Source of the DNA: Norana najaformis
Lineage: Eukaryota > Annelida > Clitellata > Crassiclitellata > Hormogastridae
Direction: 5' to 3'
Length of the DNA: 64,000 nt
Assembly: GCA_964023275.1 (NCBI GenBank)
Contig: OZ029914.1
Coordinates: 44,285,437 to 44,349,436, forward strand
Numbering within the stretch: the stretch's first letter is position 1; each line of letters starts with the position of its first letter. Shown here in pieces: positions 40,917 through 61,873 of this stretch. The notes below the pieces were generated by a model, which was not told the DNA's origin, ran no database searches, and was given only the letters and a program-made list of their open reading frames with translations. The translations under genes and the position numbers were made by a program.

Positions 40917-43900
40917 TTATTTGCGGGTAAATGACGTCCTTCGGCAGTCGCAGTTTTTGTACCAGAAGCTACAATAACACCGGTAACCGGAGCAGCACTT
41001 GAGCACTTTGATATGAGTGTTTCTTTCGCACAAGTCCCTGTAGCAACCGCAGAGACTTAAGGGACAATCATCTCTGAAAGAAAACAAATTCGACAGATTC
41101 CGCTATGTAGGTTTTCGTAAGTTATTTTGAATGCTACAACATCTTCACACGACGCGTCGTAACTGGAGATGACTATCCTTCCCTTTCTTTATTATACAAT
41201 GGTATGCATTGCATTACACTGTACAGATACTGAATCATTCGAAACATCTATAATTAACTGTGACAAATTTGTCATTATTCAGATCGTTTGAAGCTTACAG
41301 GTCCGGTCAACAATACAACACTTTCAAGACATTAGCATCACCGCATGGGGTCGTAATCGTAATCGTAATCTCGAGATTTCTAGAGCGCTCAACGAAAGCC
41401 ACATCTCAGGGACCAGCTTTTTCACATGCGCTCCGTCAAAGCCAAATCGATGGGCAAAAGGTTTTCGATTCCTGGTCACGATTCAATGGTCAGGCAGAGA
41501 GACGGCATGGCCGCCACGGTTGGTGGTGTTCGGGATTGAAGCGGAAATAGAGATAAGAAGAAGAGTAATTTGTACAGTCCTCGTCAACCTACAAATCTCA
41601 AGCTTATTGACAGTTCGGCTTCTATTTTGGTGTTTTCGTGATCACTTTCGAAAACTATAACAAGAAATCTACAGGAATTTTCTCATTTTAATCAGTTCTT
41701 TTCCGCCAGTGTGCTATGATGTATATTTCGATGGCATCTTGACGAATCTCATAGCCACATGTCTCCATGAAATTTCTGTAGATCCCAGGCATCCAACTTA
41801 TTACGTCCCATATGTACAAGACGCCTATATACTAAAGTATGTGACATACAATAATTGGCATCAAATTGCCAATTGATCTTGTTAATTTGCGTGCACGCTC
41901 ATGGCAATTCATTCTGAGGGATTGTTATTTAGGCCTGAGTTCTAAAACGAATGCAAGTTGCACGATTCACTTTACTTCACTATTTACAGTGAGAACTTTA
42001 CAAATCTCTTCCAGTCGACGTCAACAGCCTATGATTCCATAAGATGTCGTTAAACAATGGAAACTGCTACTACTGCTACTTTATTCCAGTGCGATACATT
42101 CTGTACGTATGCATCATTCGCACAGCGGTTTCCAGGGTCTCAGAAGCGCTGTTTAGCAAAGAGAAACATTTGGCCTGACCTGATATGACAATCACACTAG
42201 ATCTCATAGATATGTCCCAGTAATTCTATGCGTACGCATAGATATACTGAGATAGCGTCAGTCTGACAAAATGATATGGCAACATATTCTACCCTAGATC
42301 TCTAATCTAAGCGTATGTAGGCCTATAAGAAAGTATTAATCAGATATAGATATACACAGTTCTCCACTCTAAATAATAATAATAATAATAGTAATAATAA
42401 TCATCATAGGACGATTTATACAGTGCTGTAGTACGGCCGAGGCCGAAAAGAGGGCGCTGTACATATTCAGTTATTCGCTGACTTCATCCAGTGCGGCGCA
42501 AGTGTCAGCCTATACATAGGTGTATATATATGCAATATGCAATAACATACATTCACAATTGATAAATTTGAAATGTGTATTTGAAAGCAAGAGCATCCAC
42601 CGACAGAGTATATAACAATATGTGTACTTGGAGGCACATGGAAACTTTGGCAATACGATTTCAACGGTATACATATACAGTACATAAAACAGAAATCGAT
42701 TCAACATAATAAGTATACAACACTTACACAGATTACCTACGAAATAGACAGTTCTAAGTGACCTCCATATATATACATATATATTACATACATATATCTA
42801 CATCTATATACAGATACACATATTGCATATGCGATATAACCTCAGCCTTCCTATTCATAGTTAGGTTACATCTACAATTACTAGTACACAGGCATAAAAT
42901 AGTCAAATATATGTAGGCTGTGCGACAAAAAAAGAAGTGCTTTATATTCACAAACATGCATATAATATATATATATATTTATGTATACATGTTTTTATGT
43001 AATGATGTCGGATTGAGGTTATAAAAACGAGTTGAAGAAAAGCCCTCGTCGTATATTTCGCGTCTTCGATGGTGACTGAAGCGAGGGATGCAGTGGATCA
43101 GATGATGGAATTAATCGCTCATCTTTAGAACAATTAGTTAACCGTTTATGATGGCATTCATCTTCGTCTTTGTGTCTGTCAGCCTCGTTCATACTCTTTG
43201 CATGGCTGTCCCTCTGTGTATACCTTCGATTCTCCGCTCAGGTATAGCCTTCTTCCTTTCTCTGTAGTTTAAGTGGCGGGACGTGTTAGTTAATGTCTGT
43301 CTGTCTCTTTCTCTGTGTCTGTCGTTGTCTCCATCGGCCTTTGTCTGTTTGTGTTTCTCCCACTGTATGTGTCGCTGTATCTCTAAGTATATTTATTTGC
43401 TGTTCTTCGTATATATATATCTATATCTATATAGCTACAAAATTATGAGACATATTTAGACAGATATATAGGCACAGGCACAGGCATAGATACAAATACA
43501 GATATACATATAGGTATTAATATAAATACAGATATGCATATACATGCACATAAACATACACAATTAGATATAGAGATATAAATATAGATATATCTGAATT
43601 TGGGGTCAGTTGGGTTTCCCGTGAATTAGTACATTTCCACCATCAACCAAGAATTCCAAGCATCGTTTCGGATCTAATTAGATGCCAACGTTATAAGCAA
43701 AGCCAATCCGAAGAAAATCGACCTCGATTTCAAGAAATCGCCTTGTGAGTCTCCAGTCACACACTTATACAGAAAGACATAGATCTTAGCACGACAATAC
43801 ATCAAGACCGCACATTGTCAAGCATCATCAATTTATATACAGCCAGGGAAAACAGCGCATCTGATAGGGAAGATTGGGAGGGACAGAGTGAGAGACAGAC

Positions 43901-59723: not shown

Positions 59724-61873
59724 TTATTCGCGGGGAAAAAACGACCTCCGGCATCGGCCGGCGTTGATCCAGATGGGGTTGTGGCACCCGAAGCCGGGGC
59801 AGCAGATGAGCACTGGGTTTCTACTGCCCTGTTCGCACCAGTCGTCGTAGCAACCGCAGAGACTTAAGGGACAATCATCTCTGAAAGAAAACAAATTGGA
59901 CAGATTCCGCGATGTAGGTTTTCGTGAGTTATTTTGAATCCTACAACATCTTCACACGACGCGTCGTAACTGGAGATGACTACCCTTCCCTTACTTTATT
60001 ATACAATGGAGTGCATTGCATTACACTGTACAGATACTAAATCATTCGAAACATCCATAATTAACTGTGACAAATTTGTCATTATTCAGATTGTTTGAAG
60101 CTTACAGGTCCAGTCAACAATACAACACTTTCAAGACATTAGCATCACCGCATGGGGTCGTAATCGTAATCGTAATTTCGAGATTTCTAGAGCGCCCAAC
60201 GAAAGACCCGACACAGGGACCAGCCTTTTTACAGGTGCTCAGTCAAAACCAATTTGATAGGCAAATGGGTCCGATTCCAGGTGAAGATCCAAAGCTCAGA
60301 CAGAGAGACAGTGTGGCGGCTACGGTGGGTGATGTTTGGGATTGGAGCGGAAATAGAGGTAAGAAAAGCAAGAGTTATTAGTACAGTCCTCGTCAACCTA
60401 CAAATCTCAGATCGGCTACTGTTTTGGTGTTTTCTCAACCTCTTTCGAAAACTATACTAATCTCTAGGAATTTTCTAATTTTAACCAGTTCTTTTCCGCT
60501 AATGTGCTGTGATGTTTATTTTGATGGCATCTTCATATCTTCAATCTCATAGCCACGCGTCCCCATAAGAATTCTGTAGATCCAGAACATCCAACTTATG
60601 ACGTCCCATATGTCCATGACGCCCATAATCCAAAGTATACGACATACAATAATTGGCATCAAATTGCATGCACATATACATACACAATTAGATATAGCTA
60701 TACAAATATAGATATATCTGAATTTGGGGTCAGTTGGGTTTTCCGTGAATTAGTACATTTCCACCATCAACCAAGAATTCCAAGCATCGTTTCGGACCTA
60801 CTGTAATTAGATGCAAACGTCAAAAGCAAAGCCAACCGTAAGAGAATCGGCCGTGATTTGCAGAAATCGCCTTCTGTGCCACCGGTCATACACTTATGCA
60901 GAAAGACATATATCTTAGCACGACAATATAGCATGACGCCATCTTGACACGCGTCATCAATTTATATACAGCCAGGGAAAACATCCCGGTCTGTATGAGG
61001 GGAAGATAGTGAGAGACAGAGGAAACAGATGCAGAAACAAAGGCTGAAGAAAGTCAGCAATCAGGGATGGAGATACATTAGGAAGAAGGCTAGGGAATGT
61101 TCGAAATCAGAGTAAAATGAAGAAAAAGAAGATATTCAGAATGAAGAAACAACAGAAGAAGACGACCATAATGATGATGATTATGATGATTTTGATGACG
61201 ACGACGACGATTAAAAATGCCGAAGAAGAAGAAAAAGAAGATGCTCATGCTGTTGATAATGAAGATGATGATGATGACGATGACAACGACGACGACGATG
61301 AAAGAGACGAATAGATAAAGAAGGAGATGATGATGAAGCAGCAGAAGTCGCTGAAGAAGAAGAAAAACATCAGTCTCTTAAACTACCCCTGAGAGGCAGC
61401 CATGGGTATGAAGTGCGAACGACTTCACTTGCTTAACCTCGGTATACAAAGGCTGGTAGCCAGTCCTCTTCCGTGCCTCCTGATCTTCCTATCGACAATG
61501 TACGGTTAGCATACTCATTTTATAGCTGATTTGCTAGAGGGCACAAGTATAGCAAAAATTATAAAAATATCTTTCAGCCCTGGCTGTGATTTAAACAACC
61601 GACCTCTGGATTTACAGTTGAACACGCTGAGCACTAAACTGTCACGACCCCCCAGAGTAAGAAATCGGACTGAAATAACGTCATAAATTAATTCCTCACA
61701 GACAGAGAGACACACAGACAGACAGACAGGCAGGCAGGAAGGCAGACAGACAGACAGCTGTATTTATTTTTACACAGAATCAGGACGATTGCTCTTATGT
61801 ACAACCAACCTTTTGGCTCTTCTCAAGGTATCGTTTAATTTCTGCTCGCCATCGTAGAGCGAATTATTGTTAC
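59724..61873 (-). CDS. Secreted cysteine-rich peptide precursor P4 (exons 2 and 3; exon 1 outside window)
   Basis: Pro exon 61774-61873 and mature exon 59724-59880 (TAA at 59726-59724) with the family's phases, GTAAAA donor and TTTCTTTCAG acceptor. The signal exon would sit at the next unit junction beyond 64000. The pro region has a clear dibasic processing site (RRAKR) where P1-P3 have a single Arg, and it lacks their odd Cys. The mature part has 8 Cys: C-X4-C-X-C-X4-C-X10-CC-X4-C-X10-C, the order C-C-C-C-CC-C-C. The hairpin pair of P1-P3 is absent, with other residues between the last two Cys. This is the most diverged copy but fully open. Confidence 0.78.
60157..60370 (-). mobile_element. 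L2-type LINE 3' tail, unit 4 (minus)
   Basis: Most diverged copy, in intron 2 of P4. Confidence 0.55.
61420..61670 (-). mobile_element. tRNA-derived SINE, family 4, unit 4
   Basis: Diverged copy of 13190-13445. Confidence 0.45.

Follow-up and report, generated by a model that had tools for sequence, protein, structure and literature searches.

A ten-cysteine framework formed by gene conversion between two eight-cysteine genes in a putative knottin-type peptide array of Norana najaformis

The tandem peptide genes described here lie in a 64,000-nucleotide window of the annelid Norana najaformis (GenBank assembly GCA_964023275.1, contig OZ029914.1, hereafter C2; C2:44285437-44349436). The window holds three 15.5-kb tandem units whose mutual identity is 95-97% over 14-15 kb. 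A fourth unit shares 76-83% identity with the other three in its alignable parts. Each unit carries one minus-strand gene with a mature-peptide exon, and these genes are termed P1, P2, P3, and P4. The mature region of P3 has ten cysteines (Cys), and this framework arose by recombination between two eight-cysteine genes, Cys63 and Cys70 having been acquired together on one conversion tract. P3 is the recipient and a P4-like gene is the donor, because P3 resembles P1 and P2 far less within the tract (77.5-78.2% identity) than downstream of it (94.6-95.1%).

The conversion tract in P3

A site was counted as informative when P1 and P2 share one base and P4 has another. In the region of exon 3 (about 1.3 kb) there are 269 such sites, two of which were dropped as P3 matches neither side. 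Within positions 41045-41381 of the window (about 340 bp), P3 follows P4 at 63 of 67 sites, whereas outside the tract it is P1-like at 185 of the 200 sites scanned. The maximum chi-square of 181.7 was reached by none of 300 site shuffles, a procedure that treats sites as independent and gave 30.6 at the highest. Moreover, the trees conflict, with P3 joining P4 in the tract and P1 and P2 downstream, each at an ultrafast bootstrap of 100. P3 and P4 are 96.2% identical in the tract versus 80.5% downstream, and the corresponding values for P1 and P4 are 78.4% and 81.9%.

On its right side, the main block stops within the mature exon, past codon 70 (41045) and before codon 72 (41039). Cys63 and Cys70 of P3 are thus placed inside the tract, and Cys 86 to 103 outside. 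Scattered P4-like sites past the main block are found at 41033 and 41027, and the tract edge may be patchy and extend to codon 76. Among the 200-base bins with data between 39.4 and 45.2 kb, no further P4-like bin was seen in P3, the next highest being at 39.8 kb (6/16 sites); unit 4 has nothing that corresponds to 42.0-43.4 kb, a stretch without informative sites. A P4-like appearance of unit 3 at 45.2-46.8 kb was set aside because position 45313 is where the 15.5-kb triplication stops, and simple repeats occupy the corresponding place in units 1 and 2. An assembly chimera is disfavoured as the origin of the tract, since its identity to P4 is 96.2% rather than 100%. Independent paired gain of Cys63 and Cys70 in P3 and P4 is rejected by the tract itself.

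Gene structure and extent of the array

The gene model of P1-P3 consists of three predicted exons, namely a signal exon of 26 codons plus 1 nucleotide (nt) with the donor GTAAGC, a second exon of 100 nt, and a mature exon with the phase-2 acceptor TTT(C/T)AG. This model recovers the residue numbers 63 to 103 used in an initial annotation of the window. For P4, exon 2 and the mature exon were found, and the signal exon would fall just past the window end. A run of exactly 5000 N bases (C2:44349437-44354436) starts one base past the window and covers this expected position; a second run of 2500 N bases lies at C2:44201937-44204436. All exons seen in P1-P4 have AG/GT splice sites and open frames, and the six core cysteines are kept in the paralogues, so the cysteine pattern is not a product of chance. 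The exons listed below are predictions from DNA rather than transcripts, and mature-exon coordinates include the stop codon.

9871..10027, minus strand: P1 mature exon, 8 Cys (68, 75, 86, 87, 92, 94, 101, 103)
13577..13676, minus strand: P1 exon 2 (propeptide), carries Cys54
15572..15650, minus strand: P1 signal-peptide exon
25338..25494, minus strand: P2 mature exon, same 8 Cys as P1
29042..29141, minus strand: P2 exon 2 (propeptide), carries Cys54
31193..31271, minus strand: P2 signal-peptide exon
40917..41073, minus strand: P3 mature exon, 10 Cys (63, 68, 70, 75, 86, 87, 92, 94, 101, 103)
41045..41381, minus strand: P3 gene-conversion tract, P4-like at 63/67 informative sites, includes Cys63 and Cys70
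44620..44719, minus strand: P3 exon 2 (propeptide), carries Cys54
46971..47049, minus strand: P3 signal-peptide exon
59724..59880, minus strand: P4 mature exon, 8 Cys (63, 68, 70, 75, 86, 87, 92, 103)
61774..61873, minus strand: P4 exon 2 (propeptide)
80..158, minus strand: signal-peptide exon of P0, the next gene leftward, whose remaining exons lie outside the window

Long arrays of short-unit repeats adjoin the signal exons of units 1 and 2 (at least 14763-15322 in unit 1 and 30249-31177 in unit 2), near the edge where the triplication stops in unit 3.

The genome (17 contigs, 608 Mb) was searched with P3, which gave nine matches at an expectation value (E) of up to 0.001, P1-P4 included. 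A local scan of the window flanks added a tenth paralogue, P9, and the list of ten is possibly incomplete since P9 had escaped the genome search. Eight of the paralogues form an array of minus-strand genes in the order P7, P9, P5, P0, P1, P2, P3, P4, spanning about 118 kb (C2:44.228-44.345 Mb). The other two are located away from it, P8 at C2:33.74 Mb and P6 on a different contig, C16. The mature-exon acceptors are equivalent across the array genes, and all three exons were located in seven of the eight, the exception being P4 with its signal exon in the N run.

Between P1, P4, and P5, divergence per site reaches 0.35-0.54 in the mature exon; the adjacent intron (0.19-0.24) and the 3' flank (0.10-0.19) differ less. 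Nonsynonymous divergence (dN) is 0.36-0.54 and synonymous divergence (dS) is raised too, at 0.33-0.53. Such a pattern would be more typical of a secreted, diversifying effector than of a conserved hormone. Positive selection is not proven, since the dN/dS ratio is close to 1 and tests of this kind are confounded by gene conversion, as PMC12737323 cautions. The secreted peptides could act in venom, mucus defence, or signalling.

An unrelated knottin-type gene lies on the plus strand of the window, with a signal exon at 52579-52668 and a cysteine-rich exon at 54610-54810. It has a weak Pfam Toxin_12 match (E 0.019), and a near-identical copy is situated to the right, at C2:44359394 and 44361684.

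Cysteine patterns and resemblance to known peptides

The mature regions of P1-P4 align without gaps over 51 residues, and the cysteine positions reported for them in the initial annotation were reproduced exactly. The interval assigned to the four genes there, 40917..59880, contains the mature exons of P3 and P4, but those of P1 and P2 fall outside it. The proposal of one backbone with a constant six-cysteine core holds in all ten paralogues found, the core being invariant in the nine that were aligned and also present in P9. The pattern C-C-CC-CxC-CxC, with no cysteine at 63 or 70, is carried by eight of the ten (P0, P1, P2, P5, P6, P7, P8, and P9), so this eight-cysteine form is ancestral by parsimony. 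P3 has the same pattern plus 63 and 70, whereas P4 has 63 and 70 and lacks 94 and 101. The three frameworks described among neighbouring genes are real as patterns, but the ten-cysteine one is a hybrid of two eight-cysteine genes. When P5 is taken as the nearest unchanged form, codon 63 reads TGG in P5 and TGT in P4, and codon 70 reads CGC and TGC, one base apart in each case. Codon 94 is TGC in P5 and AAC in P4, and codon 101 is TGC and GGC. Based on these codon changes, we infer one gain (63/70) and one loss (94/101), both on the P4 lineage.

The cysteines had also been proposed to come and go in whole pairs. Neither the 63/70 nor the 94/101 pair is broken in any of the ten paralogues; the six beyond P1-P4, where unpaired losses were looked for, break no pair but add no new event either. 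However, P3 and P4 are not separate cases. As Cys63 and Cys70 of P3 came in one tract from a P4-like donor, the evidence for coupling is reduced to the one gain and the one loss assigned to the P4 lineage. Linkage on the DNA suffices to account for the presence of both in P3, and no bond is needed. Furthermore, of the 28 ways in which random loss could take two of eight cysteines, 4 would remove bonded partners if the agatoxin bonds are assumed, so the loss of 94/101 by itself is weak evidence for coupling. Unpaired cysteines just upstream of the mature start, both encoded in the second exon, weigh against strict pairing, namely Cys54 in P1-P3 and Cys59 in P5. These are possibly odd cysteines, unless removed by processing. 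The P5 exon that holds the single Cys59 lies at C2:44256807-44256899.

The bond predicted between 94 and 101 is expected by homology, as the aligned Cys 27 and 34 are bonded in omega-agatoxin IVA. The bonds of this toxin, given in PMC3210452 as 4-20, 12-25, 19-36, and 27-34, would map onto 68-87, 75-92, 86-103, and 94-101, and the motif CC-x4-CxC-x6-CxC of P3 aligns with it position for position. P1, P2, and six other paralogues share the cysteine order of omega-agatoxins IVA and IVB. The array peptides differ from these toxins in that sequence similarity is weak (E about 0.4-1), that P3 and P4 have the extra 63/70, and that P4 lacks the equivalent of 27-34. In a structure model of P3, strands of at least three residues are predicted at 24-26, 30-34, and 41-45, and residues 94 and 101 (34 and 41 in the model) form the strand ends flanking a turn. 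A bond between 63 and 70 would be plausible.

The gathering cutoff of Pfam PF02819 (Toxin_9), 21.3 bits, is passed by P6 (24.6) and P8 (27.8) among P0-P8, the paralogues scanned. Lower scores were obtained by P1 (15.8), P2 (17.1), P3 (19.3), P5 (18.9), and P7 (12.0), and P4 and P0 gave no match. A profile of nine paralogues matched purotoxin-1 in the PDB at E 0.012 and omega-agatoxins weakly, at E 0.39-0.78. No homologue of the P3 or P6 exon was found in a large protein collection by a search that requires shared 5-residue words. NCBIfam matched none of five proteins (P0, P1, P2, P7, and P9 not included), and Rfam gave no match within the window. Above the Toxin_9 cutoff, the dispersed P6 and P8 are also near the family consensus, and they may represent the conserved ancestral peptide genes that gave rise to the array.

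Agatoxin-like peptides, or CCWamides, offer a further comparison. In PMC8557429 they are described as usually having three exons, the first encoding the signal and the last the mature peptide. The intron ahead of this last exon is in phase 2, there are eight cysteines, and the residue between Cys 6 and 7 is often aromatic. Their order C-C-CC-CxC-CxC is found in eight of the ten paralogues, P3 having two additional cysteines and P4 departing from it. The predicted three-exon layout agrees, being complete in P1-P3 and short of the signal exon in the P4 sequence. The phase-2 intron is present at the same position in P1-P4, but the split codon encodes valine rather than K/R; in P6 and P8 this intron likewise seems, on inspection by eye, to be in phase 2. 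An aromatic residue (F, W, and Y in P1-P3) stands between Cys 6 and 7, although P7 has none and P4 lacks these two cysteines. An amidated aromatic C-terminus is not seen in P1-P4, which end without G or GK/GR. P7 ends in F-G, P5 and P9 in GR, P6 in GK, and P8 in lysines. Additionally, the array genes differ from that family in their fast divergence. On these features, the array peptides appear to be of the knottin type (inhibitor cystine knot, ICK) and related to the agatoxin-like/CCWamide family, without being called members of it.

Framework change by paired loss is already known in spiders. In wandering-spider ICK peptides, as described in PMC9958548, the C6/C7 pair was lost from an eight-cysteine ancestor, with frameworks from C8.0 to C6.0. 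The same loss is seen in P4 if, as the cysteine order suggests, spider C6/C7 corresponds to 94/101 here. P4, however, additionally gained another pair, and the spider frameworks were placed on a peptide phylogeny, whereas here genomic DNA reveals the conversion. Gene conversion has been discussed for scorpion toxin families (PMC2651877). In the open-access papers that were searched, no report was found of sub-exonic conversion creating a new cysteine framework.

Proposed history of the frameworks and its meaning

The explanation considered probable is that of a knottin array in which the P4 lineage swapped one pair for another and a later conversion produced the ten-cysteine P3. The ancestral mature peptide would have had eight cysteines in the order C-C-CC-CxC-CxC, bonded by homology as 68-87, 75-92, and 86-103, with 94-101 as a hairpin staple. 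The P4 lineage would then, in either order, have lost this staple and gained Cys63 and Cys70, which flank Cys68 and are probably bonded together. Thereafter, the 5' portion of the mature exon of a P4-like gene, with both new cysteines, would have been transferred to a P1-like P3 by a short conversion, the outcome being the ten-cysteine hybrid.

Some room, if not much, is left for a rearranged connectivity, in which the N-terminal cysteines of P4 (and P3) do not form a local 63-70 bond and P4 adopts a different fold. In P4 the gain of 63/70 coincides with the loss of 94/101, as a swap would, the spacing C-CxC-C permits several local pairings, and P4, like P0, lacks a Pfam match. Nevertheless, P3 combines 63/70, an intact 94/101, and the six core cysteines on one backbone, and P4 retains all core cysteines at the same spacing, which makes a rearrangement unlikely. 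Less credit still is due to the model of the initial annotation, in which each pair is an independent optional disulfide, and selection at the level of bonds produced the three frameworks through separate paired substitutions. It agrees with the unbroken pairs of all ten paralogues and with the correspondence of 94-101 to a known bond. However, 63/70 of P3 came by gene conversion and not substitution, which refutes the model where P3 is counted as a separate origin; what is left is a single gain and a single loss on one inferred lineage, and the six further paralogues contribute no event, so this model is improbable. Finally, an incomplete homogenisation, with P1 and P2 overwritten by a third gene and P3 and P4 keeping old shared sequence, is very hard to credit. 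Although no direction of conversion is barred in arrays, and the identities of the tract region to P5, P7, P0, and P9 are widely spread, P3 is the odd one out in the identities given above (P3-P4 96.2% versus 80.5%; P1-P4 78.4% versus 81.9%).

Disulfide-rich peptides are classified, and their histories inferred, by their cysteine frameworks, and here one framework was built from two others by conversion within a single exon. A framework assembled in this way means that, in tandem arrays, classes and trees drawn from frameworks can be misleading, and that the co-occurrence of cysteines is not proof of a bond. More tentatively, and with the balance somewhat against it, accessory disulfides might be regarded as movable DNA modules, conversion having grafted 63-70 onto a backbone that keeps 94-101 and so yielding a five-disulfide peptide in one step. 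The array also provides three natural variants on one backbone, two eight-cysteine forms and one ten-cysteine form, for testing optional disulfides in a knottin. If such grafting by conversion is recurrent, recombination, and not stepwise substitution alone, would generate new cysteine frameworks in knottin arrays.

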